From Knoellia remsis (lineage in GTDB: Bacteria > Actinomycetota > Actinomycetes > Actinomycetales > Dermatophilaceae), in NCBI RefSeq assembly GCF_003002895.1, contig NZ_PVTI01000031.1, positions 1 through 36,228 on the forward strand: DNA of 36,228 bases, written 5' to 3'. Below, in pieces: positions 1 to 36,228 of the stretch; the first letter of the stretch is position 1; every line of letters begins with the position of its first letter. A program made the position numbers and the translations under genes. A model generated the notes under the pieces. That model ran no database searches and was not told where the DNA came from. It saw only the letters and a program-made list of their open reading frames with translations.

Positions 1-346
1 CGGTCAAGCCGTCAACGGCCTACGACGCGGCAACTCCTTCCTCGCCCACCGCTACCGCCGCCTCGCCCGCCGCATCGGCAAACTCCGCGCGATCGTCGCC
101 GTCAGCAGATCACTCCTGACCATCATCTGGCACCTCCTGACCGACCCGACCCAGAGCTACACCGACCTCGGCGCCGACTACTACGACCGCCACATCGACA
201 CCACACGCCGCACCCAGCGACACGTCCGCGACCTCCAAGCCCTCGGCTACCGCGTCACCCTCGAACCCGTCGCCTGACCAAAACCCCACACACCACCGCG
301 CCACCCGCAGCACTCACCCCTGCCCCCATCACCTTCATTTTCTGGA
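1..346 (+). mobile_element. Right part of an IS110-family insertion sequence
   Basis: The transposase fragment plus about 69 bp of C-rich non-coding DNA before the next gene's stop codon. IS110 elements lack obvious terminal inverted repeats, so the exact right end cannot be placed by eye. It should fall between 278 and about 346 unless it overlaps the SDR 3' end. Confidence 0.5.
2..277 (+). CDS. IS110-family transposase, C-terminal fragment (5' end outside the window)
   Basis: An open frame enters from the left edge and ends at a TGA. Its 91 residues match the C-terminal part of actinobacterial IS110-type (Transposase_20) enzymes: a GNSFLAHRYRR stretch with the serine expected of this family, then the basic RRIGKLRAIVAVSRSLL helix, then a TDLGADYYDRHIDTTRRT stretch and a short tail. 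IS110 transposases use a RuvC-like DEDD domain plus this serine-containing domain. The DEDD part and, in IS110-group elements, the left end encoding the bridge RNA would lie outside the window. The gene converges on the SDR gene about 70 bp downstream. Whether the element is intact cannot be judged from here. Confidence 0.85.
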   Translation, partial: GQAVNGLRRGNSFLAHRYRRLARRIGKLRAIVAVSRSLLTIIWHLLTDPTQSYTDLGADYYDRHIDTTRRTQRHVRDLQALGYRVTLEPVA

Positions 347-1132
347 TCAGTCGGGCGGCGGGAGGGGGCGGAGGCGGAGGTTCTGCATCCCGCCGTCGAC
401 GGCGAGGGCGACACCGGTCGTCGACCCCGACAGGGGCGATGCCAGGTAGGCCACCGCGCCGGCCACCTCGTCGGCCGAGACGAGTCGGCCGTGCGGCTGA
501 CGGGCGTTGAGGGCGGCACGCTCGGCCGCGGGGTCGTCGGCCCGGTCGAGGAGCCGCCCGATCCACGGGGTGTCGGCGGTTCCGGGGCTCACGGCGTTGA
601 CCCGGATGCCCTCGCGGATGTGGTCGGCCGCCATCGCGCGCGTCATCGCGTGCACGGCTCCCTTGCTCGCGGAGTAGAGCACCCGGTCGGGCAGGCCGGC
701 CGTGGCCGCGATCGACCCGGTGTTGACGATGGCGGCGTGTTCGGACCGGCGCAGGTGCGGCAGGGCGGCGCGGGCGACCCGGGCCATGCCCACGACGTTG
801 GCGTCGAGCACCCGGGCCCACTCGTCGTCGGGGTTGTCGGCGACCGTGCCCTGGGCACCGATGCCGGCGTTGTTGACCACGACGTCGAGGCCGCCCCACG
901 TCGCGACAACCTCGCTGATGGCGGCACGGACTGAGGCGTCGTCACCGACGTCGCACCGCACCGCCAGCGTCTGCTCGTCCGCCGGGACCGACGACGGGTC
1001 GAGGTCGAGTGCCGCCACCTTCGCCCCGCGGGCGCGCAGCTCGTCGGCGATCGCCGCGCCGATGCCGGAGGCGCCGCCGGTGACGATGGCGACGAGGCCG
1101 TCGAAGTCACGGATGTCGTTCTGCCGGCTCAC
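347..1132 (-). CDS. SDR-family oxidoreductase, probable 2-keto-3-deoxy-L-fuconate dehydrogenase
   Basis: A 261-residue classical short-chain dehydrogenase. The cofactor motif TGGASGIG is at residues 18-25, NNAG at 87-90, and catalytic Ser140, Tyr153 and Lys157 (YSASK) are present. The start is the GTG at 1132, which overlaps the upstream FAH gene's TGA as GTGA; the longer open frame upstream is non-coding. By analogy with the Xanthomonas pathway it would oxidise 2-keto-3-deoxy-L-fuconate with NAD to the 2,4-diketo acid. This assignment rests on its place between the FAH gene and the divergent fuconate dehydratase gene. SDR specificity cannot be read from sequence alone, so the family is certain and the substrate inferred. 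Confidence 0.85.
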   Translation of the reverse strand: MSRQNDIRDFDGLVAIVTGGASGIGAAIADELRARGAKVAALDLDPSSVPADEQTLAVRCDVGDDASVRAAISEVVATWGGLDVVVNNAGIGAQGTVADNPDDEWARVLDANVVGMARVARAALPHLRRSEHAAIVNTGSIAATAGLPDRVLYSASKGAVHAMTRAMAADHIREGIRVNAVSPGTADTPWIGRLLDRADDPAAERAALNARQPHGRLVSADEVAGAVAYLASPLSGSTTGVALAVDGGMQNLRLRPLPPPD

Positions 1133-1995
1133 GATGCGGCTCCTCCTGCCGTGAGGGATTCGACGAAGACCTGTCGCTGACGCCCGAGTCCCTCGACCTC
1201 GACCTCGCACACGTCACCGGCTGCGAGGTAGGGGAACCGGCCCGAGAGTGCGACACCCTCCGGCGTCCCAGTGAGCACGAGGTCACCGGGCTCGAGCGCC
1301 ATGACCTGGCTGAGGTCGTGGAGCACCGCTCCGACGTCGAAGATCTGGTCCGCGGTCGTCGAGTCCTGACGCGGCTCGCCGTTGACCCAGCTGCGCAGCC
1401 CCAGCGCCTGCGGGTCCAGCTCGTCCGGCGTGACGAGCCAGGGTCCTGCCGGAGTGAACCCGGGGCAGCACTTGCCCTTGCTCCACTGCCCGCCGGAGAT
1501 GTCCAGCTGGAAGGTCCGTTCGGACAGGTCGTTGACGGTGACGAACCCTGCGACGTGACGCACCGCCTCGTCGGGCGACGCGGCATACGACAACCGTTCG
1601 CCGATGACGACTCCGAGCTCGACCTCCCAGTCGGTGCGCGTCGACCCCCGCGGGATCTCGACGTCGTCGTCCGGGCCGCCGAGGGTGCCGGGGTGCTTGA
1701 GGAACACGACCGGCTGCGTCGGCGGCTCAGCGCCCGACTCCGCGGCGTGCGCGGCGTAGTTCATGCCGATGCACACCACGGCGGGCGGGCGCGCCACGGG
1801 CGGCCCGACGCGCAGCTCGTCGGCACCGGCCAGCTCGGGCAGGTCGTCGAGGGCGGCGCGGAGTCGGTCCAGTCCTGCGTCGGCGAAGAAGTCGCCGTCG
1901 AAGTCGGGGGTCACCGGGCGCGCGTCGCACCACCTGTCCGCCCTCTCGACGACGGGAACCTCCTGGCCGCGGGGGCCGAGTCGGGCCAGCTTCAC
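1129..1995 (-). CDS. FAH-family hydrolase, probable 2,4-diketo-3-deoxy-L-fuconate hydrolase
   Basis: A 288-residue fumarylacetoacetate hydrolase-family protein with the [12 protein letters not shown] stretch near residues 75-86, metal ligands in DWEVELG (Glu124, Glu126) and Asp156 in VNDLSER, followed by KGFxPxGPW-like and TGTPEGV motifs. The GTG start at 1995 has an AAGGAG ribosome site about 8 nt upstream on the minus strand. In the non-phosphorylative L-fucose route this enzyme splits the diketo acid into pyruvate and L-lactate. It forms a two-gene operon with the overlapping SDR gene and is transcribed divergently from the dehydratase, which supports the role. Related family members cleave other acylpyruvates, so the exact substrate is inference. 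Confidence 0.85.
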
Positions 1996-2040
1996 GATCG
2001 TTCTCCTTCGCCCCGACCTCGTCCGCGAGACCGGTGATTG

Positions 2041-2112
2041 TCGACATCTGCTTGACACACTTTAAAGATCCGATGTTTGATGGCGCAATACCCGTCCGTC
2101 CGCCAGAGGAGG
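2041..2112 (+). promoter_or_regulatory. Divergent promoter region between the FAH gene and fucD
   Basis: An AT-richer island inside the GC-rich divergent gap. TTGACA at 2052-2057 is followed 18 bp later by TTTGAT at 2076-2081, a plausible -35/-10 pair for fucD. A strong AGAGGAGG ribosome site at 2105-2112 lies 8 nt before the GTG start. The AAAGATCCGATG stretch between the boxes could be an operator. No regulator is encoded next to it. Confidence 0.45.
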
Positions 2113-2120
2113 CTGATGTC

Positions 2121-3401
2121 GTGAGCACGATCATCGCGCTGGAGACCCACGACGTCCGTTTCCCCACCTCGCAGACGCTGGATGGCTCGGACGCCATGAA
2201 CCCGGACCCCGACTACTCGGCCGCCTACGTCCGGCTCGTCACCGACGCCGACGACGGTCTCAGCGGGCATGGGTTCGTCTTCACCATCGGCCGCGGCAAC
2301 GACGTCCAGGTCGCGGCCATCGAGGCACTTCGGCCGCACCTGGTCGGCCGCGAGGTCGAGCCCCTCCTCGATGACATGGGCGCCGCGTGGGACCTCCTCG
2401 TCCACGACTCCCAGCTGCGCTGGCTCGGGCCCGAGAAGGGCGTCATGCACATGGCGACGGGTGCCGTCCTCAACGCGCTCTGGGACCTCAAGGCCAAACG
2501 TGCAGGTATGCCGTTGTGGCAGCTGCTCGCGTCGATGTCACCGGAGGAGATCGTCGCCGCGGTCGACTTCCGCTACCTCCGCGACGCGCTCACCGAGGAC
2601 GAGGCACTCGAGCTGCTGCGCGCCGCAGAGTCGGGGCGTGGCGAGCGCACGAAAGCCCTTCTCGCGCAGGGCTACCCGGCATACACGACGACTCCCGGCT
2701 GGCTCGGCTATGACGACGCCAAGCTCGAGCGGCTGAGCAAGGAGGCCGTCGCGGACGGCTTCACCCAGATCAAGCTCAAGGTGGGCAACGACCTCGACGA
2801 GGACCGTCGCCGCCTCGCGCTCGCCCGGCATGCGGTCGGCCCCGACGTGTGCATCGCCATCGACGCCAACCAGCGGTGGGAGGTCGGAGAGGCCGTCGAG
2901 TGGGTGCAGGCGCTGTCCGACGCCGACCTCGCCTGGGTCGAGGAGCCGACCTCTCCCGACGACATCCTCGGTCATGCCGCCATCGCCCGCGCCATCGCGC
3001 CCATCCCGGTCGCGACCGGCGAGCACATGATGAACCGCGTCATGGCCAAGCAGTTCCTCCAGGCGGATGCGCTCCAGGTCCTCCAGATCGACGCGACCCG
3101 CGTCGCCGGGGTCAGCGAGAACCTCGCGATGCTGCTGCTGGCGGCGAAGTTCGGCGTCCGTGTCTGCCCGCACGCCGGGGGAGTCGGTCTCTGCGAGGCC
3201 GCGCAGCACCTCTCGATGTTCGACTTCGTCGCGCTGTCCGGCGAGACAGACGGCCGCTTCATCGAGTACGTCGACCACCTCCACGAGCACTTCGTCACGC
3301 CGGTCCGCATCGAGGACGGGCACTACGTCACCCCCACCGAGCCCGGCGCCGGCACCGAGATGCTCGCCAGCTCGATCACCGAGTACGAGGTCACCGCATG
3401 A
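2121..3401 (+). CDS. fucD: L-fuconate dehydratase (enolase superfamily)
   Basis: A 426-residue mandelate-racemase-type enolase-superfamily dehydratase (EC 4.2.1.68) converting L-fuconate to 2-keto-3-deoxy-L-fuconate. The N-terminus carries the family-specific [17 protein letters not shown] stretch (residues 21-37). With the GTG start at 2121 the key residues fall at Lys218/Lys220 (KLK), Asp248 and Asn250 (DAN), Glu274 (EEP), Glu301 (GEH), Asp324 and His351. To my recollection these are the numbers reported for the characterised Xanthomonas campestris enzyme: metal ligands 248/274/301, Lys220, and the Asp324-His351 dyad. This supports both function and start. It overlaps the next gene by 4 bp (ATGA) and heads the catabolic operon. 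Confidence 0.95.
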
Positions 3402-4393
3402 CCCTGGCCCCGTCGTCGGCGACGCCCGTCCTCGCCCTCGGTGTCGCCCAGCTCGGCAACCTCTTCCACGAGGTGTCCGACGCGGACGCGCGCGCCGTGC
3501 TCGAGTCGGCGTGGGAGGCGGGCATCCGCACGTTCGACACCGCGCCGCACTACGGGCTCGGACTGTCCGAGCGCCGGCTGGGTGCCTTCCTCGGCTCACT
3601 CGATGCCCCCGAGCGCGCGGAGGCGCTCGTGTCGACCAAGGTGGGGCGACTCCTGCGACCGACGCCCGGGCGCAGCGGCGACGACCTCGACTCGGGGTTC
3701 GCCGTGCCGGCCACCCACGAGCGCGTGTGGGACGCCACCGCCGCAGGCATCCGCACCTCCCTCGAGTCCTCGCTCATCCGGCTCGGACTCGACCGCGTCG
3801 ACACGACCTACCTCCATGACCCCGACGAGTACCCCGACCCCGAGGGCTCGATCCGCGGTGGCCTCGCCGCCCTCGACGAGCTCCGCCGCGAAGGGCTCAC
3901 CCGTGTGATCGGCACCGGCAGCAAGTCGGTCGCGGCACTCGCCGACAGCGTCGCCGACGAGCGCTGCACCGCGCTCATGGTGGCCGGCCGCTGGACCGTC
4001 ATCGACCGATCGGCCGGTGCCGAGGTGCTGCCGAGGGCCGCGGACCGCGGGGTCGAGGTCGCCGCCGCCGGGGTCTACAACTCGGGACTGCTGGCCACCG
4101 CGCGTCCCTCCGGTCATTTCGAGTATGCCGCCGCGTCGCCTGCCGTCGTCGCGCTCGCCGAGCGCGTGGCCGGGGTCTGCGAGAGCCACGGCGTCGACCT
4201 GCCGACGGCCGCCCTGCACTTCGCCGCGCGTGGCGAGGGCGTGACCCGGGTCGTCGTGGGAGCCCGCAGCGTCGAGCAGGTTCGGCAGACGCTCGAACGG
4301 TGGAACACGACGGTGCCCGATGCGCTCTGGGAGGACCTCGCCGATGCAGGTGACGTGTCGAGTCTCGCGGGGACCGAGCGGGTGTCGTCGTGA
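3398..4393 (+). CDS. Aldo/keto reductase, probable L-fucose (D-threo-aldose) 1-dehydrogenase
   Basis: A 331-residue aldo/keto reductase with the catalytic tetrad Asp47, Tyr52 (FDTAPHYG), Lys81 (STKVGR) and His140 (YLHDPDEY). The [17 protein letters not shown] segment is typical of the D-threo-aldose 1-dehydrogenase/pyridoxal 4-dehydrogenase branch, which oxidises L-fucose to the 1,5-lactone. It overlaps fucD (ATGA) and the lactonase gene downstream (GTGA), so it is translationally coupled to both. Placed between a fuconate dehydratase and a lactonase, it is the expected first enzyme of the pathway. The family is certain; the sugar specificity comes from context. Confidence 0.88.
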
Positions 4394-7995: not shown

Positions 7996-8058
7996 ACGCC
8001 GCCCCGGGACCGGACCCCACGGCATACGAAACCCACCCCCACCAAGGAGCACGACATC

Positions 8059-9060: not shown

Positions 9061-9100
9061 TCGGTATGCCCCGCGCTCACCCGAGCGCGCGGCATACCGA
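9061..9100 (+). terminator. Hairpin terminator of the fucose operon, built from an inverted GTATGCC pair
   Basis: TCGGTATGCC (9061-9070) pairs perfectly with GGCATACCGA (9091-9100). The inner arms CCGCGCTC/GAGCGCGC extend the stem to 18 positions with a single mismatch around an ACCC loop. No U-tract follows, which is common in high-GC actinobacteria. The stem base is made of the GTATGCC word discussed in the findings. Confidence 0.7.
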
Positions 9101-9127: not shown

Positions 9128-10507
9128 ACCGATCGCAGCGCCGCCGTCGCCGAGCTCGTCGCCGCCCTCCCCGAGGGCGTCGTCGCCACGGCACCCGCCC
9201 AGCTCGAGAAGTACCGGATGGACTGGGCCAAGGACACCAGCGCCGGTATGCCGTGTGCGGCCGTGCGCGCGGAGCGCGCCGAGCACGTCCAGGAGGCGGT
9301 CCGCTGGGCCGCGCGTCACGGCATGCCGGTCGTGCCGCGAGGGGCCGGATCGGGGCTCAGCGGAGGGGCGTCGGCGGTCGAGGGCGGCGTCGTCGTCTCA
9401 CTCGAGCGAATGACCGCCATCGAGATCGACCCGGCCGCGCGGTGCGCTGTCGTCGAGCCGGGCGCGTTCAACGCCACCGTCAAGAAGACCGCCGCCGAGC
9501 ACGGCCTCTGGTACCCGCCGGACCCGAGCTCGTTCGAGATCTGCTCCATCGGCGGCAACGTCGCGACGAACGCCGGCGGCCTGTGCTGCGTCAAGTACGG
9601 CGTGACCACCGACTACGTCCTCGGGCTCGACGTCGTCCTCGCCGACGGGCGGCTGGTCACGTTGGGCGGCAAGCGGATCAAGGATGTCGCGGGGCTGTCC
9701 CTGCTCAAGCTCTTCGTCGGGTCCGAGGGCACGCTCGGGATCGTCACCCGCGTCATCCTGCGGCTGGTCCCGGCCCAGCTCACGCCGTCGACGCTCGTCG
9801 CAACGTTCGACTCGGTGCGGGCCGCGGCGGACGCGGTCGTCGGCATGTGTCGCGTCACGCGGGCGTCGATGATCGAGCTCATGGACAAGCCGACGGTGAA
9901 CCAGGTCGAGGACTTCGCGCCGATGGGCCTCGACCGCGACCGGGCGCTGCTCATCGTCCAGTCCGATGCGCCCGAGGGGGCCCGGGCCGGCGAGATGGAG
10001 CTCATCGAGGCTGCATGCGAACAGGCCGGTGCCGCAGAGGTTTTCGTGACCCACGAGGCCGACGAAGGGGCGGCGTTCGTGCGGGCGCGGCGACTCGCGT
10101 TCCCGGCGGCCGAGGCGAAGGGCGCGCTGCTGCTCGAGGACGTCGGGGTGGAGGTGCCGCTGCTGCCCGACCTCGTGGCGCGGGTCGAGGAGATCGGGGT
10201 CGAGCGCGGTGTCGAGGTCGTCTGCGTCGCGCACGCCGGCGACGGCAACACCCACCCCATCGTCATGTACGACGCCGCCGACCCGGACTCGGTCATCCGG
10301 GCCGAGGCAGCGTTCCAGAACATCCTCACCGCCGCGATCGAGCTCGGCGGCACGATCACGGGTGAGCACGGCGTCGGCCGGCTCAAGCGCGACGCCCTCC
10401 CGGCGATGCTCGGGCCCGACGTCATGGAGCTCAACCAGCGGGTCAAGGACGCCCTCGACCCGCAGGGGATCCTCAACCCGGGAGCGGTGCTCGACGCCCG
10501 TTCGTGA
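9125..10507 (+). CDS. FAD-linked oxidase, GlcD/D-lactate dehydrogenase family
   Basis: A 460-residue flavoprotein with an N-terminal FAD-binding PCMH domain (about 35-215: VVPRGAGSGLSGGAS, SIGGNVATNAGG, FVGSEGTLGIVTRV) and a C-terminal FAD-oxidase_C domain with HAGDGNTHP near residue 370 and GEHGVGRLKR near 412. The family oxidises glycolate, D-lactate or other 2-hydroxyacids and passes electrons to the membrane. It has its own promoter after the fucose-operon terminator. The fucose pathway would release L-lactate, whereas this family usually prefers D-2-hydroxyacids, so a direct link is possible but unproven. Confidence 0.88.
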   Translation: MTDRSAAVAELVAALPEGVVATAPAQLEKYRMDWAKDTSAGMPCAAVRAERAEHVQEAVRWAARHGMPVVPRGAGSGLSGGASAVEGGVVVSLERMTAIEIDPAARCAVVEPGAFNATVKKTAAEHGLWYPPDPSSFEICSIGGNVATNAGGLCCVKYGVTTDYVLGLDVVLADGRLVTLGGKRIKDVAGLSLLKLFVGSEGTLGIVTRVILRLVPAQLTPSTLVATFDSVRAAADAVVGMCRVTRASMIELMDKPTVNQVEDFAPMGLDRDRALLIVQSDAPEGARAGEMELIEAACEQAGAAEVFVTHEADEGAAFVRARRLAFPAAEAKGALLLEDVGVEVPLLPDLVARVEEIGVERGVEVVCVAHAGDGNTHPIVMYDAADPDSVIRAEAAFQNILTAAIELGGTITGEHGVGRLKRDALPAMLGPDVMELNQRVKDALDPQGILNPGAVLDARS

Positions 10508-11172: not shown

Positions 11173-11209
11173 CGGTATGCCGTCCGCGACCTGCGCGGAC
11201 GGCATACCG
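11173..11209 (-). terminator. 16-bp perfect hairpin with inverted GTATGCCG words, terminator of the CUT1 operon
   Basis: CGGTATGCCGTCCGCG (11173-11188) is the exact reverse complement of 11194-11209, with a 5-nt ACCTG loop. It lies 28 bp beyond the stop of the last minus-strand gene of the CUT1 locus. Confidence 0.7.
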
Positions 11210-11581: not shown

Positions 11582-12665
11582 GACGGACCCCCGCCGAGAC
11601 GGACGCCGGCGGAGCCGAGTTGTTCCACGCCGCCTCGTAGCCCATGCCCGGAGTCGTGGGTGCGCGCACCATGCCGTCCGGGCCGACCTCCGGCGCGCGC
11701 TCGACGGGGTTGGAGTCCACGAGCGCCTCGTAGTACGTCGTGTTGGGGATCGCCATGCACAGGTGCGTGTTCGGCAACCCGCCCCCGTGCACCTCGGCCC
11801 GCAGCAGGTAGGCGTCGGCGAGGTGAGCCACGCGCATGGCGCCGGTGATCCCGCCCTTGAACGAGGTGCTCGTCCGGACGGCGCCCGCGCAGCCGGAGGC
11901 GATGAAGTCGGCCGTGTTCATGTGGGCGCCGTCGGAGGTCTCGGCGACGAGTAGCGGCACGGTGACGCGTTCGGCGAGGCGCTGGTGGGCGTTGACACTG
12001 AACTCGCGCATGGGCTCTTCATACCAGCGGTACCCGGCCTCGGAGAGGGCTCGCCCGAGGTAGACGGCGTCGGCGAGGTCGAAGCCGGCCGAGCCGTCGT
12101 ACATGAGGTCGACCTCGGGTCCCACATGGTCCCGCAGCGCGAGCGAGAGCTCAGCGTCACGCCGGGCGTCTCCCCATGCGTGCAGCTTGATGGCCCGGTA
12201 GCCGAGGGCGAGGCACTGGTCGGCGACGTCGAGGTACTCCTCGATGCTGCCGAAGGTCACCGTCGAGGCGTATGCCGGGATGGCGTCGCGGTAGGTGCCG
12301 AGCAGCTCGTGCACCGGCTGGCCCGCGCGCTTGCCGGCCAGGTCCCACAGCGCCTCGTCGACGAGTCCTTGGATGTAGATCGGCATCTCCTCGATGCGGT
12401 CGATCTCCCACAACCGGTGCCAGAGCCACTCCCGGCGGGCGGGGTCCTCGCCGAGGAGCTCATCGCGGACTCGTCGCTCGATGAGGTCCTGCAGGATGAT
12501 GCCGCGCTTGGTGTAGGCCCAGCCGGTCATGCCGTCGTCGGTCTCGATGGCCAGCCACGCGCCGACGCGAGGCCCGTCCGAGCCCGGGAGCCCGTCGCGC
12601 CACCGGAAGGCCGGCTCGACTGCGGGCTCGTCGACGAGGAGTACGGAGACGGAGACGATCTTCAC
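11571..12665 (-). CDS. Enolase-superfamily (mandelate racemase-like) sugar-acid dehydratase, substrate unknown
   Basis: A 364-residue MR/MLE-type protein. The catalytic strand carries Lys160-Leu-His162 (a KxH rather than KxK motif). Metal ligands are Asp190 (YDGSAG, with Gly where many relatives have Asn), Glu216 (EEP) and Glu242. His293 in EVHGGG is the likely general base. It is shorter and clearly different from the fuconate dehydratase at 2121, so it is not a duplicate. It lies 27 bp after the permease gene and overlaps the mutarotase gene. The residue pattern indicates dehydration or epimerisation of an acid sugar; I cannot name the substrate. GTG start, with AGGGGG upstream. Confidence 0.85.
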   Translation of the reverse strand: MKIVSVSVLLVDEPAVEPAFRWRDGLPGSDGPRVGAWLAIETDDGMTGWAYTKRGIILQDLIERRVRDELLGEDPARREWLWHRLWEIDRIEEMPIYIQGLVDEALWDLAGKRAGQPVHELLGTYRDAIPAYASTVTFGSIEEYLDVADQCLALGYRAIKLHAWGDARRDAELSLALRDHVGPEVDLMYDGSAGFDLADAVYLGRALSEAGYRWYEEPMREFSVNAHQRLAERVTVPLLVAETSDGAHMNTADFIASGCAGAVRTSTSFKGGITGAMRVAHLADAYLLRAEVHGGGLPNTHLCMAIPNTTYYEALVDSNPVERAPEVGPDGMVRAPTTPGMGYEAAWNNSAPPASVSAGVRRDR

Positions 12666-21512: not shown

Positions 21513-21544
21513 ACGGCATACGTGCGCCGGATTTCGTATGCCGT
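21513..21544. repeat. Inverted ACGGCATACG/CGTATGCCGT pair in a divergent promoter region
   Basis: The 10-bp arms 21513-21522 and 21535-21544 are exact reverse complements separated by 12 nt. The pair sits upstream of both fadE (minus) and the DUF6584-like gene (plus), so it cannot be a normal terminator for either. Confidence 0.8.
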
Positions 21545-24196: not shown

Positions 24197-24589
24197 GTGT
24201 CCGCGCCGGTGCCTGGACACGACCTCCTCGAGGTGCGCATCTCGGCCCCAGCCGAGCACGCCCAGCGCCTCGCTCGACTGCTCGTCGAGGAGCGACTGGC
24301 GGCGTGCGCGCAGGTGCTGCCCAACATGACCTCGACGTTCCGCTGGGACGGGCAGGTGGCGACCGAGCTCGAGCAGCTCATCCTCGCCAAGACCCACCGT
24401 TCGCGGTTTGCAGCCATCCTCGAGCGCGTCGGCGCCGAACACCCCTACGACGTCCCGGAGATCCTCGCGGTCCCGATCGTCGACGTGAGCGAGTCGTATG
24501 CCGCGTGGCTCGCCACCGAGGTCGGAGCGGCCACTGACCCGACCGATCCCACCGACACCCGCGACACCACCGGCCGAGGAGACACGTGA
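24197..24589 (+). CDS. cutA: Divalent-cation tolerance protein CutA
   Basis: A 130-residue protein with a CutA1 core: LARLLVEERLAACAQVLPNMTSTFRWDGQV, ELEQLILAKTHRSRF and HPYDVPEILAVPI, ending in SYAAWLATEV. CutA forms very stable trimers with a ferredoxin-like fold; its link to copper tolerance is historical and its role is unclear. A low-complexity Asp/Thr/Pro tail of about 20 residues follows the conserved domain. The GTG start lies 3 bp after dcd, and the stop overlaps the hydrolase gene. Confidence 0.93.
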   Translation: MSAPVPGHDLLEVRISAPAEHAQRLARLLVEERLAACAQVLPNMTSTFRWDGQVATELEQLILAKTHRSRFAAILERVGAEHPYDVPEILAVPIVDVSESYAAWLATEVGAATDPTDPTDTRDTTGRGDT

Positions 24590-25218
24590 AGGACCCGCTC
24601 GGGCGGCTCGTTGCCCACGACCTGCGCGGCACGATGCCCGACGAGGCCGAGGGTGTCGTCCTCATCTGCCACGGCGGCGGCGAGCGCGGCTACGGCCCGA
24701 TGCCGTGGTGGGAGGGCCCGGTCCTGCGGATGCGGCCCTTCGCCAAGGCCATCGAGCGCCGGGCCGGCAATCGTCTCGCGGTCGTGCGGCTCAAGAACCG
24801 CTACTTCGGCTGGAACGGTGCCGAGCAGACACCGCTGCTCGACGCGCGGTGGGCGCTCGAGCAGATCCGTGAGCGGTATGCCGGTCTGCCGCTCGCGCTC
24901 GTCGGCCAGTCCATGGGTGGCCGGGTCGTCCTGCACCTCGCTGGTGAGCCCGACGTCAAGGCCGTCGCCGGTCTCGCGCCGTGGATCGCCGACGGCGACC
25001 CCGTCCTCGGCCGTCCCGGGCTCGACGTGCTGCTCATGCACGGCACCGACGACCGGGTCACCGACCCGCGCCGGACCGAGCGCCTTGCCGAGCAGCTTCG
25101 GGCGCAGGGCGCCGACGTGACGTGGCGCCCGGTCGAGGGGGAGATCCACTCGATGCTCAAACATCCACGGGTCTGGCACCGCGAGGTCGCCGACTTCGTC
25201 ACCGGCTCCCTGCTCTGA
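24586..25218 (+). CDS. Alpha/beta-hydrolase fold protein
   Basis: A 210-residue cytosolic hydrolase. An oxyanion-type LICHGGGERG turn is near residue 26, the nucleophile elbow GQSMGG (Ser about 109) is followed by VVLHLAG, the acid is probably in HGTDDRVTDP, and the histidine in EGEIHSMLKHP. It resembles dienelactone-hydrolase/small serine esterases. The substrate is unknown and the dcd-cutA neighbourhood does not help. GTG start with a GTGA overlap with cutA. Confidence 0.85.
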   Translation: MKDPLGRLVAHDLRGTMPDEAEGVVLICHGGGERGYGPMPWWEGPVLRMRPFAKAIERRAGNRLAVVRLKNRYFGWNGAEQTPLLDARWALEQIRERYAGLPLALVGQSMGGRVVLHLAGEPDVKAVAGLAPWIADGDPVLGRPGLDVLLMHGTDDRVTDPRRTERLAEQLRAQGADVTWRPVEGEIHSMLKHPRVWHREVADFVTGSLL

Positions 25219-25242: not shown

Positions 25243-26718
25243 TCAACTTCTCCCATCCGACGCGTCCGGACTTGCCGGAGGGGAGGACTGGGTGAGCTCT
25301 GGACGAGAGGAGTCCTGGGGAGTGGGGGAGGCGCCGGCGAGGCCGAACCAGCTGACGACGCCGCCGACGATGAGCAGGATCGCGCAGATGATCATCGAGC
25401 CGCGGAACCCGGCCGTCATCGCCGCCGGGTCCTGGTAGTCGTCGCCGGACAGCCCGACGAGAGCCGGCAGCGCCGCGACCGCGAGCAGCGACCCGGCACG
25501 CGCGACGGCGTTGTTCACGCCAGACGCGACACCGGCATACCGGTCCGGGGCGGCAGCCAGCACGGTCGAGGTGAGCGGGGAGACGAGGAGGGCGAGCCCC
25601 AGGGCGAAGGCGACCAGCCCGGGCAGGACCGTCCACCACGTCGCGCCCTCACCGGCGGGCAGGAGCAGGAGCACTCCCGCGGCACAGATGAGCGGGCCGA
25701 CGGCCATGGGGATGCGCGGGCCGATGCGTTCGGACAGCTGCGAGGCCCGGGACGACAGCAGCATCAGCGCGACCGTCGCCGGCAACCCGGTGAGCCCGGC
25801 CGAGAGGGCCGACCAGCCCGCCGACACCTGCAGCTGCAGCACGAGGATGAAGAACACCACGCCGAGCGCCCCGTACACGACGAACGTCATCGCGTTGGCG
25901 GCCGAGAAGACGCGGTCCGCGAAGAGCGACAGGCGTACCAGTGGGTGCCGCGAACGTCGCTCTGCGACAACGAAGCCGAGCCCCGCGGCCAGCGCCACCG
26001 CGGCCACGCCCACGACGACGACCCGGCTCGTGCCCGACGACGCGGTCAGCGCATACGTCAGCGCGCCGAGCGCGACCACGGTCAGCCCAGCCCCGAGCCA
26101 GTCGAAGCCGCGCTCCGTCGCCTCGGTGTCCCGGGACTCCGGCGTGGCCCACAGCGTCAGCGCGATGACGGCGAGGCAGAGCGGCACGTTGATCCCGAAG
26201 ATCCACCGCCAGCTCCCGTTGTCGACGAGCCACCCGCCGATGAACGGCCCGATCGCCGCCGCGATCCCGGACAGCCCCGCCCACGTGCCGATGGCCGCCG
26301 CGCGGTCCTCGCGTCGGAACACCGACTGGATGATCGCCAGCCCGCCCGGGGTCAGCAGCGCCGCGCCGACTCCCTGGAGCACCCGCATCGCGATGAGCTG
26401 GGCCGGTGTCTGCGCGACGGCGCACAGCGCGCTCGCCACGAGGAACCAGCCCATCCCGACGAGATAGACCCGTCGCCGCCCCAGCCGGTCCCCGAGCGCG
26501 CCGCCGACGAGGACGAGCGACGCCAGGGCGAGCATGTAGCCGTTGATGACCCACTGCAGCTGTTCGAGCGAGGCATCGAGCTCGGTGCCGATCGTCCGAA
26601 GTGCGACGTTGACGATCGAGCCGTCGAGGATCGCGATCCCCGACCCGAGGGTCACGGCGGTGAGGGTGAGGCGCCCGCGCGTCTCGGAGCGGGAGAGGAG
26701 TTCGGTCACATCGGCCAT
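25243..26718 (-). CDS. MFS multidrug efflux transporter, DHA2 (EmrB/QacA) family
   Basis: A 491-residue protein with about 14 hydrophobic segments. The DHA2 hallmarks are present: the LDGSIVNVALRTIG opening, WVINGYMLALASLVLVGGALGDRLGRRRVY (motif A), RVLQGVGAALLTPGGLAII (motif C-like) and GGWLVDNGSWRWIFGINVP. It exports drugs or metabolites by proton antiport; the substrate is unknown. The ATG at 26718 matches the conserved N-terminus; the longer open frame upstream runs into the divergent amidase gene and is rejected. No regulator lies alongside it. Confidence 0.92.
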   Translation of the reverse strand: MADVTELLSRSETRGRLTLTAVTLGSGIAILDGSIVNVALRTIGTELDASLEQLQWVINGYMLALASLVLVGGALGDRLGRRRVYLVGMGWFLVASALCAVAQTPAQLIAMRVLQGVGAALLTPGGLAIIQSVFRREDRAAAIGTWAGLSGIAAAIGPFIGGWLVDNGSWRWIFGINVPLCLAVIALTLWATPESRDTEATERGFDWLGAGLTVVALGALTYALTASSGTSRVVVVGVAAVALAAGLGFVVAERRSRHPLVRLSLFADRVFSAANAMTFVVYGALGVVFFILVLQLQVSAGWSALSAGLTGLPATVALMLLSSRASQLSERIGPRIPMAVGPLICAAGVLLLLPAGEGATWWTVLPGLVAFALGLALLVSPLTSTVLAAAPDRYAGVASGVNNAVARAGSLLAVAALPALVGLSGDDYQDPAAMTAGFRGSMIICAILLIVGGVVSWFGLAGASPTPQDSSRPELTQSSPPASPDASDGRS

Positions 26719-26770: not shown

Positions 26771-28285
26771 ATGACGACTCCAGCCACGCGGGTCAGCGCC
26801 TTCACCGACGACGCCCTCGGCACCGACGACGCCACGGCCGTCGCAGAGCGCATCGCCCGCGGAGAGGTGTCATCCGTCGAGGTCGTCGAGGCCGCCATCG
26901 CCCGCATCGAGGCCGTCAACCCCGCCCTGGGCGCCGTCGCCGCGACCGACTACGACCGGGCCCGCACGCGCGCGACCCGGCTGCGCACCATGACCCCACG
27001 CGACTCGACCTCGCCACGCACGGCGGGCAGACGGCATACCGACGACGCAGCCGGAGACGCGGCGTTCATCGGCGTGCCCAGCGCGACGAAGGACAACGTC
27101 CACGTCGCCGGCATACCGATGACGATGGGGTCACTCGCCGTCCCGACCACGCCCGGCACCCACGACGGAGCCTTCACGCGGCAGTTCCTCGACACCGGCC
27201 TCATCCCGGTCGCCTCGACGACGATGCCCGAGTTCGGCTGGACCCCCACGACGGAGCGCGTCGGCGGCGACGTCACCCGCAACCCGTGGGACACGCGCCG
27301 CAGCCCGGGTGGCTCGTCGGGCGGTGCCGCGGCCCTCGTCGCGAGCGGCGCCCTGCCCATCGCGCACGGCAACGATGGTGGCGGCTCGATCCGCATCCCG
27401 GCCGCGGCGTGCGGTCTCGTCGGGCTCAAGCCGACGCGTGGGCGGCTGCGGCTCGACGAGGGCAACGCGAGCATGCCGGTCAAGGTCGTCGTCGACGGCG
27501 TGCTCACCCGGTCGGTGCGCGACACGGCGCGTTTCTTCGCCACGGCGGAACGAGTATGGCGCAACCGTCGCCTTCCCGAGATCGGCCTCGTCGAGCGCGG
27601 GGTGCCCACGGGGCAGCGGCTGCGCATCGGCGTCATGGTCGACTCGCCCGTCGCGCCCGCGTCGGATGCCGACACGCGGCGCGCGGTTGAGCGCACCGCG
27701 GGCCTGCTGGAAGCGTTGGGGCACAACGTTTCCGAGTATGCCGCGCCGATCCCGGAGTTCTTCAAGGCGGACTTCGAGGACTACTGGGCGTTCCTCGCGT
27801 ATGCCGTGGCGCGCCGCGGGCGTCGCATGTTCGGTCCCGACTTCGCGCCCGAACGGCTCGACCCGATGACCCTCGGGCTCGCGCAGCGGTTCCGGCGCCG
27901 GGCCCACCGGACGCCGCTCTTCATGACGCGCCTGGGGGCGTCGGGCCGCGTGCAGCAGCGGGTGTTCGGTGACATCGACCTCGTCCTCACACCCGTGCTC
28001 ACCCACGTCGCTCCGGAGATCGGGTACCTCAGCGCCGACCTGCCCTTCGACGTCCAGTTCGAGCGCCTCGTCGCGTATGCCGGCTTCACGCCACTTGCGA
28101 ACGCCACCGGTGCGCCGGCGATCTCGCTGCCCCTGGGGCGCACGGAGGACGGGCGGCCCGTCGGCGTCATGATGTCGGCCCGGCGCGGGGAAGAGCGACG
28201 CCTCCTCGAGATCGCGTTCGATCTCGAGGAGGCGTCACCCTTTGCCAGTCTTGCCCGTCCCGATCTCACCCAATTGGACGGTTAG
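26771..28285 (+). CDS. Amidase-signature family hydrolase
   Basis: A 504-residue AS-family amidase with the Ser-cisSer-Lys triad visible: Lys in PSATKDNVHVAG, Ser in RSPGGSSGGAAALVASG, and the nucleophile in NDGGGSIRIPAAACGLVGLKPTRGR. It hydrolyses amides; GatA-like function is unlikely without gatCB neighbours. AGGAAGG at 26760-26766 precedes the ATG. The last ~13 codons are odd: after a perfect hairpin at 28197-28236 the frame runs into a 41-bp tandem repeat and stops at a TAG created by a change in the first repeat copy. Confidence 0.9.
   Translation: MTTPATRVSAFTDDALGTDDATAVAERIARGEVSSVEVVEAAIARIEAVNPALGAVAATDYDRARTRATRLRTMTPRDSTSPRTAGRRHTDDAAGDAAFIGVPSATKDNVHVAGIPMTMGSLAVPTTPGTHDGAFTRQFLDTGLIPVASTTMPEFGWTPTTERVGGDVTRNPWDTRRSPGGSSGGAAALVASGALPIAHGNDGGGSIRIPAAACGLVGLKPTRGRLRLDEGNASMPVKVVVDGVLTRSVRDTARFFATAERVWRNRRLPEIGLVERGVPTGQRLRIGVMVDSPVAPASDADTRRAVERTAGLLEALGHNVSEYAAPIPEFFKADFEDYWAFLAYAVARRGRRMFGPDFAPERLDPMTLGLAQRFRRRAHRTPLFMTRLGASGRVQQRVFGDIDLVLTPVLTHVAPEIGYLSADLPFDVQFERLVAYAGFTPLANATGAPAISLPLGRTEDGRPVGVMMSARRGEERRLLEIAFDLEEASPFASLARPDLTQLDG
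28197..28236. terminator. 17-bp perfect hairpin inside the amidase 3' end
   Basis: The arms 28197-28213 and 28220-28236 are exact reverse complements with a GCGTTC loop, followed by ACCCTTTGCC. The stem lies 50 nt before the amidase stop, inside the coding sequence. It has the form of a terminator, although transcription would then end before the stop codon. Confidence 0.5.
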
Positions 28286-28381: not shown

Positions 28382-29806
28382 TCAGTTCACCGAGTTGTTG
28401 TACTGCTCGATCTGCGAGGTGAGCGACTGCGCCGCCTTGGTCATGGCCTGCTGCGCGTCGGTCCCGTTGAGGGCGGCCTCGATGCCGTCCTCGGAGGCCT
28501 TGCGCGCCTGCGGCATGACACCGAGCAGGCAGCCCTGGGTCGCCTTGGTCAGCTTCGTCGACTCGAGCTGCTTGACCGCGACATCGAAGAGCGGGTTCGC
28601 CTTGCGGTACTCGACGTCGATCGGCTCGTCGAGCGCGCCCTTGCTGATCGGGAAGTAGCCCGTGCCGGTGTGCCACTGGGCCTGGCTCTTGGGGTCGGCG
28701 AGGAACTTCACGAACCGCCACGCGGCTTCCTTGTTCGCGTCCTCCTTGCCCTCACCGTTGATCCACAGCGACGCGCCACCGATGATCGGGCCGCCCTCGG
28801 TGCCGGCCGTGATCTTCGGGTAGTTCGCGGCGCCGAGCTCCCAGCCGCCCTCCTTGGCGGCCTTGGAGAAGCCACCGAGCTGGCCCGTCGACTCGAGCGT
28901 GATCGCGAGCTGGCCCGACTTGAACGCGGCCTGCGCGGCCTTGGTGTCGCGACCGGTGTTGGCGGCGAGGCCGTCCTTGACCATCTGCTGCCACCACTTC
29001 ACGACCTCGACCGCCTCGGGCTGGTCGAAGAGGACCTTCGTCGCCTTGCCGTCACGGCCGTTGCCCTGGTCGCAGTACTCCTTGCCGTCGGTGGCGATGA
29101 ACTGCTCGAGCAGCCAGCCGTAGATCGCGGCGCCGAAGCCGTAGTCCGCCGGACCGCCCGACTTCTTCGACAGCTTCTGTGCGGCCTCGCGGATGCCCGC
29201 GAGGTCCTGCGGCGGGTTCTCCGGGTCGAGCCCGGCCTCCTTGAAGAGCGTCTTGTTGTAGTACAGGACCGGCATCGAGGTGTTGAACGGCATCGAGTTC
29301 AGCTTGTCGTCGATGCTGTAGTAGCCGGTGATGTTCGGCTGCAGGTCCGAGACGTCGAGCTTGTCGCGGTCGATGAACGCCTGCATCGGGATCGTCTGCT
29401 TCGCGTCGATCATGAAGCGGGTGCCGATGTCATAGATCTGGATGACGTCGGGCGTCGACTTGCTCTGGATCGCCGCCTTGTACTTCGTGATGGCGTCGTC
29501 GTACTTGCCGGCGTAGGTCGCCTTGACCTCGATCTTGCCCTTGTTCGCCGTGTTGAAGTCGTTGACGAGCTTCGTCAGCGCCTCGGCGTTCGTGCCGTCC
29601 ATGGCGTGCCAGAACGACACGGTCGTGACACCGCTCGCCTTGTCGAGGACATCGGCCGCGGGGGCGCCGCTGCTGCCGCCCTCACCGCCGCCATCGCCTC
29701 CGCCGCCGCAGGCGGCGAGGACGAGGGAGAGCGACGCGAGACCGGCCGGGACGGCATACCGGAAACGCCGCGACCGACCCCCTCGGTTCGTGGTCGTCGT
29801 TGTCAT
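28382..29806 (-). CDS. ugpB: ABC importer binding lipoprotein, UgpB-like (glycerol-3-phosphate type)
   Basis: A 474-residue lipoprotein with lipobox LAAC followed by a Gly-rich linker. Many segments follow E. coli UgpB: VSFWHAMDG, TPDVIQIYDIGT, GYYSIDDKLNSMPFNTSMP, LYYNKTLFKEAGLDPENPP, PIIGGASLWI, QWHTGTGYFPISK and GVMPQARKASEDGI. UgpB binds sn-glycerol-3-phosphate or glycerophosphodiesters, the likely ligand here. The ATG at 29806 has AAGGAG 8 nt upstream. It is last in the operon, after both permeases. No UgpC ATPase or glycerophosphodiesterase gene is adjacent. Confidence 0.88.
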   Translation of the reverse strand: MTTTTTNRGGRSRRFRYAVPAGLASLSLVLAACGGGGDGGGEGGSSGAPAADVLDKASGVTTVSFWHAMDGTNAEALTKLVNDFNTANKGKIEVKATYAGKYDDAITKYKAAIQSKSTPDVIQIYDIGTRFMIDAKQTIPMQAFIDRDKLDVSDLQPNITGYYSIDDKLNSMPFNTSMPVLYYNKTLFKEAGLDPENPPQDLAGIREAAQKLSKKSGGPADYGFGAAIYGWLLEQFIATDGKEYCDQGNGRDGKATKVLFDQPEAVEVVKWWQQMVKDGLAANTGRDTKAAQAAFKSGQLAITLESTGQLGGFSKAAKEGGWELGAANYPKITAGTEGGPIIGGASLWINGEGKEDANKEAAWRFVKFLADPKSQAQWHTGTGYFPISKGALDEPIDVEYRKANPLFDVAVKQLESTKLTKATQGCLLGVMPQARKASEDGIEAALNGTDAQQAMTKAAQSLTSQIEQYNNSVN

Positions 29807-31792: not shown

Positions 31793-31845
31793 CGGCATAC
31801 GAAGCCCGAACGAGCGGCATACGCCCTCTGCGCGGGCGGCATACC
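31793..31845. repeat. Three direct CGGCATAC copies at exact 22-bp spacing
   Basis: Copies of GGCATAC start at 31794, 31816 and 31838; a fourth copy in inverted orientation lies at 31899-31905. All are in the 310-bp gap between the divergent Ugp-type and OpuC-type operons, where I see no gene. A perfect 10-bp palindrome CGTTCGAACG lies at 31856-31865, and TACGTT at 31918-31923 could be the -10 of the OpuC-type operon. Confidence 0.8.
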
Positions 31846-31965
31846 GGTTCGATCACGTTCGAACGCACCGTGCGCGGCTGCTCGCCCACGCATCCCCCGT
31901 ATGCCGTCCGCTGCGGTTACGTTGGTCGAGTCACCTCTGTGCCGCGACTGTGAGAAGGGCTGTGC

Positions 31966-33731: not shown

Positions 33732-34567
33732 TCGCGAGCATCATCGACTGGCTCACGTCGTCGGCGACGTGGTCCGGCGAGGGCGGGCTCGGGGCGCGCA
33801 TCGTCGAGCACCTCTGGTACTCGGTGCTTGCGGTGGCGGTCGCGGCGATGATCGCCGTGCCGCTCGGGCTGTGGGTCGGACACACCGGTCGGGCCAAATG
33901 GCTTGTGTCCGTGGCGAACTCGTTGCGCGCCGTGCCGACGCTGGGCCTCCTGTTCGCCGTGGCGCTCTGGCTCGGGCCGAAGATCCAGGGAGACCTCGCG
34001 TTCCTCATCCCCAGCATCGTCGTGCTCGTCATCCTCGTCATCCCGCCGATCCTGTCGGGGGTGTATGCCGGCGTGGAGGCTGTCGACCCGGCTGCCCGTG
34101 ACGCTGCCCGCGGCATGGGGATGACCGGTGGTGAGGTGGTGCGGCAGGTCGAGATCCCGAACGCGCTTCCTCTCATGCTCTCCGGACTGCGGTCGGCCTT
34201 CCTCCAGGTCATCGCGACGGCGACGGTCGCGGCATACGTCGGCCTCGGCGGGCTGGGGCGCTACCTCATCGACGGCATCAAGACCGGTGACTACGTCTCC
34301 ACCGCGGGTGGCGCGATCGTCGTCTCCGTGCTTGCACTGGTGGTCGACGGGGTACTGGCTCTCGTGCAGCGTGCCGTCGTGTCGCCGGGGCTCACCGGTC
34401 GCGCAACCCGTCGCCGTCGTGCGGAAGGGGACCGCGCGGTGGACGGACCGGGGACCAACTCGCGAAATCCTGACGCGAGAAGTGTCGCCACCGGAATGTC
34501 GGCGCCCGCTGATGAGGTTGCACCGTCAGCCGACCAGACCAGATCGTCCACGTCCACCCGCCAATGA
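33728..34567 (+). CDS. Osmoprotectant ABC importer permease 2, OpuCD type
   Basis: A 279-residue permease. The membrane core (residues about 1-225) carries NSLRAVPTLGLLFAVALWLG, the loop VDPAARDAARGMGMTGGEVVRQVEIPNALP and TVAAYVGLGGLGRYLIDGI. The last ~55 residues are a hydrophilic Arg/Ser/Thr-rich tail, longer than in typical OpuCD and with no recognisable domain. The ATG overlaps the previous stop by 4 bp. Confidence 0.9.
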   Translation: MIASIIDWLTSSATWSGEGGLGARIVEHLWYSVLAVAVAAMIAVPLGLWVGHTGRAKWLVSVANSLRAVPTLGLLFAVALWLGPKIQGDLAFLIPSIVVLVILVIPPILSGVYAGVEAVDPAARDAARGMGMTGGEVVRQVEIPNALPLMLSGLRSAFLQVIATATVAAYVGLGGLGRYLIDGIKTGDYVSTAGGAIVVSVLALVVDGVLALVQRAVVSPGLTGRATRRRRAEGDRAVDGPGTNSRNPDARSVATGMSAPADEVAPSADQTRSSTSTRQ

Positions 34568-35507: not shown

Positions 35508-35628
35508 GTCAGGTCGCCCGCTCGAGTGCTCGCTTGCTCGGCGCTGGTCTGCGAGGCACTCGGCTGCCCGCGTGCGAGCCCGCGCGACTGACTGCGCGAG
35601 CTGCGAACTGTCGATGAGTGTGGTGAGC

Positions 35629-35673
35629 CGACGAGGGCCGGACGTGCGCGGTGGCGCGGTCCGGTCCTCGTCG
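35629..35673. terminator. 15-bp hairpin, probable OpuC-operon terminator
   Basis: The arms 35629-35643 and 35659-35673 pair with one G-U wobble around a 15-nt GC-rich loop, about 120 bp after the operon stop. A GTATGCCG word abuts the right arm. Confidence 0.55.
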
Positions 35674-35704
35674 TATGCCGGCGTCGTAGGTCCGCGCGCT
35701 TCTC

Positions 35705-35776
35705 ACCGGTGCGTGCAACTGACCCCGGTGCGCGCAGCTCTATGACCCCGTTGCGTGCAGCCCTGTGGCCCCGGTG
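35705..35776. repeat. Degenerate 19-23 bp tandem repeats next to the HNH nuclease gene
   Basis: The core CGGTGCGTGCAnCT..TGACCC recurs with its CGGTG/CGTTG box at 35707, 35726, 35749 and 35772, so spacing is 19, 23 and 23 bp. The last copy is truncated. The repeats end about 30 bp from the stop of the HNH gene. Confidence 0.6.
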
Positions 35777-35806
35777 CCGTGGTTGGCGTCGGGGTGTGGG
35801 GCGGGG

Positions 35807-36228
35807 TCATGGTCGTGGTGGTGGGTGGTCGTCGCCGGACGCGCGAGGGAGTGCGGGGTCGCCGCGGCCGTGGGGTGAGCCATGGGGTTGGAGTTGGGCG
35901 AGGGCGTGGTCGTAGGCGCCGGGGGTGAGGTCCCAGGTGACGCGTTCTCGTCCGTGCTGGTCGCGTTCGACTCGGCCGTGGTAGCGCTGGGTGTGGACGA
36001 TGGTGTGGTGTCGCTGGCAGAGCAGGGCGCCGTTGTCGAGGTCGGTGGGTCCGTGGTCGGCCCAGTGGATGAGGTGGTGGGCGTCGGTCCAGGCTGCGGG
36101 TGCGTCGCAGCCGGGGTAGGTGCAGTGGCGGTCGCGGAGCCAGAGGCGTTTGATCTGGGCGGGGGTGAAGCAGCGTTCGGCGGCGCCGAGGTCGACGGGT
36201 TGTCCGCAGGTGTTCAGGACGGTGGGGA
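35807..36228 (-). CDS. HNH endonuclease of the 13E12 / DUF222 family, C-terminal part (5' end outside the window)
   Basis: The last 140 codons of a minus-strand gene whose beginning lies beyond the right edge. The HNH domain is clear: LWLRDRHCTYPGCDAPAAW with two cysteines, then DAHHLIHWADHGPTDLDNGALLCQRHHTIVH. It is followed by WDLTPGAYDHALAQL and a Pro/His-rich tail. This layout is typical of the multicopy 13E12-repeat proteins of actinobacteria (N-terminal DUF222, C-terminal HNH). The physiological role is unknown. Confidence 0.92.
   Translation of the reverse strand, partial: PTVLNTCGQPVDLGAAERCFTPAQIKRLWLRDRHCTYPGCDAPAAWTDAHHLIHWADHGPTDLDNGALLCQRHHTIVHTQRYHGRVERDQHGRERVTWDLTPGAYDHALAQLQPHGSPHGRGDPALPRASGDDHPPPRP

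Follow-up and report, generated by a model that had tools for sequence, protein, structure and literature searches.

An over-represented and conserved octamer of Knoellia remsis and its relatives as a candidate DNA uptake sequence with possible orientation-specific use

The octamer in the window and in the Knoellia remsis genome

The stretch of DNA analyzed here (36,228 nt, hereafter the window) belongs to the draft genome of Knoellia remsis, which comprises 3,573,222 bases in 62 contigs. Within predicted genes and between them, partly in hairpins, the window holds 34 copies of the octamer GTATGCCG, a candidate DNA uptake sequence, with 16 on the forward strand and 18 on the reverse (Table 1). 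A dinucleotide shuffle gave an expectation of 0.45 copies, with none of 100 shuffles reaching 34, and under a second-order Markov model, which predicts 0.8 copies, no other 8-mer of the window ranked higher. The original prediction had counted about 35 copies of GTATGCC, all but one followed by G. Both strands together indeed hold 35 copies of this heptamer, G is the next base in 34, and the exception is the variant GTATGCCC at 9064. The copies listed at that time are real, with some coordinates one base off (9063 becomes 9064, and 9091 becomes 9090).

The enrichment extends to the whole genome, where GTATGCCG occurs 3,277 times (1,622 forward and 1,655 reverse) and the reversed word 276 times. 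In a 436-kb sample of the genome it was again the top 8-mer, with 433 copies against 24.7 from a third-order Markov model; ten separate 20-kb pieces carried 16 to 25 copies apiece, and the density was about one copy per 1.1 kb. The balance of orientations that had been claimed for the window was also found in the sample (215 forward and 218 reverse), the most uneven of its 12 segments having 14 to 9. No chromosomal orientation skew appeared genome-wide or in these segments, in a draft genome whose replichores are not mapped. Counts near the Markov expectation, a strong strand skew (judged on the same draft) and enrichment within a single mobile element, each of which had been held to speak against an uptake sequence, were not seen. 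None of the one-base variants of the octamer was comparably enriched in the sample, and GTATGACG, GTATGTCG and GTATGCCA were among those below the third-order Markov estimate, which for such variants is inflated by the motif itself. A longer motif was ruled out, the only clear extension being a T at position nine (45%), with weak flanks.

Genes were called with a crude GC-frame predictor of our own making. Within the predicted genes of the sample there were 312 copies against 15.9 expected from a synonymous-codon shuffle, a 19.6-fold excess. The sense frames held 21, 26 and 120 copies (0.5, 3.9 and 4.9 expected) and the antisense frames 21, 89 and 35 (1.9, 3.5 and 1.1 expected); since all six frames are raised over the shuffle, codon use does not explain the octamer. 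About 72% of the sampled copies lie in genes, some along and some against the direction of transcription, at a density of 0.80/kb versus 2.54/kb in intergenic DNA. The expectation that the word forces the rare codons TAT or ATA held for two of the six frames, with 155 of the 312 in-gene copies, and failed for the others; in a second run, the word covered 123 of the 289 TAT and 32 of the 77 ATA codons of the sample. Sense and antisense copies were similarly distributed along genes (Mann-Whitney p 0.74 and 0.90), and both lean slightly toward the 5' half. Between genes, folding confirmed the hairpins proposed near 9061, 11173 and 19461 (RNA-fold z in Table 1), and in-gene copies and intergenic inverted hairpin pairs are both present, as had been put forward.

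The copies are also conserved, a check that the original prediction had proposed. In one region compared among nine Knoellia genomes, 314 of 436 ordered comparisons (72%) showed an identical copy at the partner's orthologous site, versus 31.3% for all other 8-mers at aligned sites, 38.0% for 8-mers of the same letters and 19.1% for other 8-mers containing TAT or ATA; being pairwise, this measure scores shared ancestry repeatedly. There is turnover of individual copies, as illustrated by those at 20335 and 21536 and by the amidase gene, in which one of the five copies is shared with a relative (Table 1). The longest copy-free gap of the sample measures 10,543 bp (L020:3294-13837, on contig C3), a length that the longest gap did not exceed in 99.4% of 500 random placements. 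It encodes a SMODS nucleotidyltransferase followed by a gene without a Pfam match and is likely a defence island. The second-longest gap, of 5,231 bp, holds transposase-like, ArsR-like and CadD-like genes, which were named by eye and mark it as a segment of transposase and metal-resistance type.

Table 1. Copies of the octamer and of its variant in the window, with their setting, RNA-fold z of hairpins, and the number of aligned Knoellia genomes in which the copy is identical
Word	Positions	Strand	Setting	Identical/aligned
GTATGCCG	1581..1588	-	predicted gene	
GTATGCCG	2506..2513	+	predicted gene	
GTATGCCG	2677..2684	-	predicted gene	
GTATGCCG	4123..4130	+	predicted gene	
GTATGCCG	8020..8027	-	outside predicted genes	
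variant GTATGCCC	9064..9071	+	hairpin left arm, fold z -5.2	
GTATGCCG	9090..9097	-	hairpin right arm, partner of 9064	
GTATGCCG	9246..9253	+	FAD-linked oxidase gene	5/5
GTATGCCG	11175..11182	+	hairpin left arm, fold z -5.8	
GTATGCCG	11200..11207	-	hairpin right arm, partner of 11175	
GTATGCCG	12270..12277	+	predicted gene	
GTATGCCG	14359..14366	-	predicted gene	
GTATGCCG	16150..16157	+	outside predicted genes; overlaps possible ATG start at 16152	
GTATGCCG	19467..19474	+	hairpin left arm, fold z -7.2	1/1
GTATGCCG	19496..19503	-	hairpin right arm	2/2
GTATGCCG	20335..20342	-	acyl-CoA dehydrogenase gene	0/8
GTATGCCG	21514..21521	-	divergent pair	6/7
GTATGCCG	21536..21543	+	divergent pair	7/7
GTATGCCG	24111..24118	-	dCTP deaminase gene	0/4
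GTATGCCG	24496..24503	+		3/3
GTATGCCG	24876..24883	+	alpha/beta hydrolase gene	4/4
GTATGCCG	25533..25540	-		3/4
GTATGCCG	27032..27039	-	amidase gene	0/1
GTATGCCG	27109..27116	-	amidase gene	0/2
GTATGCCG	27736..27743	+	amidase gene	0/2
GTATGCCG	27799..27806	+	amidase gene	1/2
GTATGCCG	28075..28082	+	amidase gene	0/2
GTATGCCG	29752..29759	-		1/1
GTATGCCG	31793..31800	-	direct triplet, first; 22-bp period; outside predicted genes	
GTATGCCG	31815..31822	-	direct triplet, second	
GTATGCCG	31837..31844	-	direct triplet, third	
GTATGCCG	31899..31906	+	outside predicted genes; reverse orientation vs triplet	
GTATGCCG	34063..34070	+	outside predicted genes	
GTATGCCG	34230..34237	-	predicted gene	
GTATGCCG	35673..35680	+	outside predicted genes	

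Possible ATG starts fall within word copies at 16152, 19469 and 24498 of the window, so annotated gene starts there may be wrong; gene starts mis-annotated at uptake words have been described in Neisseria (PMC2346458). Between 11.2 and 19.4 kb of the window, strong matches to the eight other Knoellia, among the alignments listed, cover the flanks and not the block itself, which probably consists of accessory genes, though with copies at 12270, 14359 and 16150. Other repeats occur elsewhere in the genome. A second dispersed hairpin family, which ends in ACTGATTGC / GCAATCAGT, was seen at L010:7440-7520, L015:4475-4560 and L017:3997-4045, and 436 kb hold 36 copies of its core ACTGATT, where 0.8 would be expected. 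Tandem repeats whose units measure about 66 to 75 bp and contain TCCAATTGGGTG, and in many cases GTATGCCG as well, lie at L013:13214-13400, L019:1-520 and L020:25-180; two of these three clusters, which come from 14 listed copies of 27, are at contig ends.

Distribution and one-letter dialects

We surveyed 346 genomes of the order that are at least 90% complete. Thirty belong to the family of Knoellia, which includes Intrasporangium flavum (G035), Dermacoccus abyssi (G017) and a Phycicoccus bin (G020); we take this family to be the Dermatophilaceae of GTDB, and NCBI taxonomy splits it. GTATGCCG is abundant in 19 of the 30 genomes (625 to 3,277 copies), the remaining 11 having 71 or fewer. None of the 316 genomes of other families exceeds 180 copies, and the top one has 195 copies of the reversed word. 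The clade restriction proposed as a check was thus found, the octamer being abundant in this family only.

A second family (f19) uses the one-letter variant GGATGCCG, which exceeds 1,500 copies in 22 of its 29 genomes and ranges from 485 to 1,269 in the other seven, with a maximum of 4,831 in 4.2 Mb (248 reversed). We read this family as the Microbacteriaceae because 8 of 12 Microbacteriaceae-like loci (of Microbacterium, Homoserinibacter and Homoserinimonas type) carry the variant, at about 0.8 to 1.7/kb. In these eight loci (157 kb), which were chosen from the 12 for high copy number, the other four (L197, L199, L217 and L219) having 2, 9, 6 and 2 copies, 179 in-gene copies stand against 35.4 under a codon null model, a five-fold excess with all six frames raised. 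Outside this family, GGATGCCG commonly reaches up to a few times the count of the reversed word, with a maximum of 1,481 versus 681 in a 9.4-Mb genome.

Dialects also occur within the Knoellia family. Genome G009 has 1,336 copies of GGATGCCG against 310 reversed, and samples of about 40 kb gave 37 copies in G033, 24 in G024 and 23 in G009, where the codon null predicted 5.7, 7.3 and 8.6. By the same measure, about 40 kb of the Phycicoccus bin held 20 copies of GAATGCCG (0.9 expected) together with 10 of GTATGCCG (1.2 expected), two words that may have mixed sources because the genome is a metagenome bin, and about 40 kb of G027 held 16 copies of GTATGCGG plus GTATGCGC (1.2 expected). Mapped onto a ComEC tree of 50 loci, the word states can be explained by 11 changes, versus a shuffled mean of 21.7 and with none of 200 shuffles as low. 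This is a quick, midpoint-rooted tree of one gene and 50 of 80 loci, with word cut-offs applied to 3 to 21 kb of DNA, below which L165 (3 copies in 12.8 kb) and L199 fall. GTATGCCG is spread over the tree between Flexivirga and Ornithinimicrobium at one end and Knoellia at the other, and clades that lack the word are nested inside, among them the sister genus Janibacter, whose loci, like those of some Phycicoccus, have no copy; from this nesting we read the octamer as an old trait that was lost several times. The word states are patchy across lineages, and the dialects follow lineages.

In ten genomes of eight other families (20 to 40 kb each), no comparable word was found. The Kribbella word GTACGCCG (41 copies against 7.8 under the codon null) was set aside as a candidate because five of the six top 8-mers contain GTAC (L180, L188 and L190). 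As a weak lead, Propionibacteriaceae have 75 copies of CGGACGCC in genes against 23.9 (L181, L183, L194, L179 and L198), possibly a further word. Genome G030 (L070 and L090) carries about 27 copies of a repeat with GACCGTCGAACTG-like words in 40 kb.

Phages offer a comparison with DNA from outside the chromosome. Copies of GGATGCCG number 5 in Min1, 13 in Coltrane, 9 in Slay and 7 in Kenzers, where Markov estimates are 4.8, 5.2, 4.9 and 4.1. In four of five Microbacterium phages, the density is 0.11 to 0.33/kb versus about 0.9 to 1.2/kb in DNA of the host family, a reference that represents the family and not each phage's host genome. The Tetrasphaera phage TJE1 has 2 copies of GTATGCCG in 49 kb, with 0.6 expected.

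Orientation of neighbouring copies

The arrangement of neighbouring copies was analyzed in 476 kb of the K. remsis genome, in genomes G015 and G012 and in 19 word-bearing loci of named taxa, without the word-bearing loci L141, L145, L150 and L165. Eight orthologous Knoellia segments (72 alternating and 42 same-orientation neighbours) were left out because they are not independent. Neighbours alternated in orientation more often than they kept it: 270 to 173 in K. remsis, 44 to 21 in G015, 65 to 36 in G012 and 157 to 83 in the 19 loci. The alternation was strongest for neighbours within one gene (80 to 41 in K. remsis and 93 to 40 in the others), and five control words in the K. remsis genome showed no excess of it. 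For GGATGCCG, neighbours were alternating in 111 cases and in the same orientation in 84 (p 0.06). A preference of sense and antisense copies for different parts of genes was ruled out as the cause, as there was no positional difference.

Counted over all pairs, one class was in short supply. Of 921 pairs of GTATGCCG lying 100 to 1500 bp apart, 346 had the same orientation, with 535.8 expected from a Poisson model, and the 575 opposite-orientation pairs were near their Poisson expectation. When sense and antisense labels were shuffled with gene strands kept, same-orientation pairs numbered 454.8+-14.6, and none of 5,000 shuffles came down to 346 (z about -7). By subset, the deficit had z of -5.7 in K. 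remsis, -3.2 in G015 and -3.5 in the loci of named taxa, and two control words had no such deficit. Avoidance of same-orientation copies, with opposite copies placed independently, is a feature of the word that is new with respect to the literature at hand.

Uptake machinery, alternative explanations and significance

Genes for DNA uptake, which the original prediction had proposed to look for, are present in part. On contig C37, comEA (SLBB and helix-hairpin-helix domains) adjoins comEC (Competence and metallo-beta-lactamase domains), and both are open; of the type IV pilus genes also sought, no type IVa pilin was matched in nine Knoellia. A Tad locus adjoins a prfB-like gene on contig C3 and comprises two TadE-like pilins, one of them below the Pfam cut-off, a small Flp-like protein without a Pfam match, TadC, a TadB-like protein recognized by eye and the TadA/CpaF ATPase. 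The K. remsis genome has four T2SSF matches. Genome G014 has no T2SSF match and no word (48 copies versus 24 reversed).

The Neisseriaceae DNA uptake sequence (GCCGTCTGAA / ATGCCGTCTGAA, with ComP as receptor) resembles the octamer in its thousands of copies, in both orientations, in genes and intergenic hairpins, as well as in core-genome conservation and dialects that follow lineages. The string ATGCCGTC is common to both words, by chance or not, if the Neisseria 12-mer is taken as given in PMC2346458. In the 436-kb sample, GTATGCCGTC occurs 94 times against 2.2 expected. Neisseria uptake needs a CTG core (PMC3630211), which GTATGCCG and its dialects lack; the phylum is another one, nine Knoellia have no type IVa pilin match, and the orientation-specific avoidance seen in the Knoellia family is not mentioned for the Neisseria sequence in the parts of the literature at hand. 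The Pasteurellaceae uptake signal sequences (AAGTGCGGT and ACAAGCGGT) are similar in having about one copy per kb and opposed pairs at gene ends (PMC7811141) and in existing as two variants (PMC3630211). They differ in sequence and phylum, and the bias of sense and antisense copies toward opposite gene ends (PMC2346458) was not seen in the present analysis. Micrococcus luteus is a competent actinobacterium with comEA, comEC and a Flp/Tad pilus and without a comG cluster (PMC6370729), which indicates that an actinobacterium can transform with this set. Knoellia likewise has comEA, comEC and a Tad locus; no uptake sequence is mentioned for M. luteus in the available part of that paper.

We consider it fairly probable that GTATGCCG, often followed by a T at position nine, serves the Knoellia/Intrasporangiaceae family as a DNA uptake sequence, with one-letter dialects and orientation-specific use. 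This builds on the over-representation, conservation, distribution and dialects of the word, on its orientation statistics and on the open comEA and comEC genes. Free DNA bearing the word would be bound preferentially at the cell surface by a receptor, pulled in by a pilus, conceivably of the Tad type, and ComEA, and one strand would then pass through ComEC. We propose that the word accumulates across the core genome because fragments bearing it enter and recombine more often; it would do so both in genes and as intergenic inverted hairpin pairs, fresh islands would lack it, and related lineages would use the one-letter dialects GGATGCCG, GAATGCCG and GTATGCG[G/C]. Recognition or use would be orientation-specific, and within 1 to 1.5 kb a single copy on each strand would suffice, so that within this range further copies in the same orientation would be redundant and opposite ones would not. 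Strand-wise reading may then mean that every single strand, or every entry direction, requires a separate copy over such a distance. Two close uptake words reportedly do not raise binding in the Pasteurellaceae system (PMC7811141).

Among the explanations considered, uptake sequences match the set of features best. The uptake reading, as first formulated, gains from the abundance, orientation balance, hairpin pairs, intergenic excess and conservation of the word, from its absence from the two longest gaps sampled, from its dialects and from a family-restricted, patchy distribution that suggests a dispensable trait, and loses from the lack of a type IVa pilin match and from the spacing; several other observations weigh against it too. 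The type IVa pilin profile PF07963, the class to which ComP belongs, matched in none of nine Knoellia and in 2 of 36 genomes of the family, although this 27-position profile may miss divergent pilins. The TadA/CpaF gene is in two parts, the first identified by Pfam and the second by eye, with about 6.7 kb and tyrosine recombinases between them (L235:11254-19450), so the gene is broken in this strain; a mobile element may possibly have disabled an uptake pilus at its Tad ATPase. ComEC and T2SSF/Tad-type genes are each found in 57 of 58 relatives, word-free ones included, and the machinery therefore does not predict the word. The TadE-like pilin of the C3 locus has no close homologue in the Knoellia drafts G003 and G008, which have about 2,500 copies each. 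Since ComEC, T2SSF and one TadE-like pilin all fail to separate word-bearing from word-free genomes, we propose no receptor candidate. Even spacing, another expectation of the original prediction, was not borne out (coefficient of variation of gaps between merged clusters 0.826 versus 0.857+-0.045 at random). Haemophilus uptake is reported to be independent of word orientation (PMC1939737), and orientation-specific avoidance is hence not what an uptake word of that kind predicts. The avoidance itself was not significant in G012 alone (z -1.4) or for GGATGCCG in Microbacteriaceae (405 of 854 pairs, z about -1.5 to -1.6). Finally, the phage Majesty (L226, 17.4 kb) has a host-like density of GGATGCCG (14 copies, 0.80/kb, versus a Markov estimate of 1.7 copies), and Coltrane has 2.5 times its Markov estimate.

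It is important to consider that a per-strand role in repair, or a Chi-like role, predicts the same orientation statistic as strand-wise uptake. The word could be a chromosome-maintenance site (a strand mark for repair, or a site of priming, segregation or nucleoid-protein binding) of which each strand would require one roughly every 1 to 1.5 kb, an explanation that we regard as unlikely. Such a requirement would yield avoidance of same-orientation copies with independent opposite ones, and the copies are dispersed and conserved. For a core process, it would be odd that no more than 19 of the 30 sampled genomes of one family are rich in the word and that Janibacter and some Phycicoccus loci lack it; the lack of a visible replication skew, the intergenic preference and the hairpins also count against it.

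Chi sites are non-palindromic, orientation-specific, over-represented octamers, and GTATGCCG shares these traits, the orientation specificity being that of its avoidance. A Chi-like recombination hotspot, at which a break-resection enzyme would read the word one way so that each orientation forms its own series, also agrees with the conservation at orthologous sites and with the absence of the word from the two longest gaps; we nevertheless think it quite improbable. RecC (PF04257) matched in none of nine Knoellia. It occurs in the word-bearing genomes G019, G032 and G034 of the family, in G027, and in six genomes without enrichment of GTATGCCG or a dialect (G014, G017, G018, G021, G026 and G031), so its distribution does not track the word, which argues against a Chi site read by RecBCD; AddAB and AdnAB genes were not searched, and we know of no Chi reading by an actinobacterial AdnAB. 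There is no clear orientation skew, and the hairpin pairs, the intergenic excess, the recurrent disappearance of the word among family members and a density near one copy per 1.1 kb are not features of Chi.

That the word is a target of methylation or restriction, or an element of transcription terminators, and has grown abundant as such, seems very unlikely. The intergenic inverted pairs do fold stably; most copies lie in genes in either orientation to transcription, a simple terminator scan of window positions 1-20000 missed all three hairpins, and we see no reason why a target of methylation should be 20-fold enriched, often at rare codons. An artefact of codon pairs, composition or mutational bias can practically be dismissed: the codon background of GGATGCCG is raised and this variant also exceeds its reversed word outside f19, yet GTATGCCG far exceeds the synonymous-codon shuffle in six frames, is densest between genes and is conserved beyond matched 8-mers, and GGATGCCG is five-fold over-represented even in frames with about one expected copy.

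DNA uptake sequences and uptake signal sequences have been described as unique to Neisseria and Pasteurellaceae (PMC3630211). Among the matches listed in the open-licence literature, as far as its available text goes, no actinobacterial uptake sequence is reported, and no title treats an over-represented genomic word with the letters of GTATGCCG. Our wider proposal is tentative: that this is the first uptake-sequence system outside those two Gram-negative families, that at least two actinobacterial families share it through the sister dialects GTATGCCG and GGATGCCG and minor ones, that recognition works through a Tad/Flp pilus and not a ComP-type pilin, and that the word of the Knoellia family is read strand by strand, with a copy per strand every 1 to 1.5 kb. 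If the uptake role is true, it would be new for actinobacteria, and a convergent case in Gram-positive bacteria of soil and water, with a different pilus, would show how DNA self-recognition evolves. The orientation rule bears on whether double-stranded DNA at the cell surface or the entering single strand is where such words act. An uptake role would also suggest that natural transformation is widespread in groups for which it is still unproven, and the words would provide a practical tag for transforming actinobacteria that are hard to engineer, such as Microbacterium.

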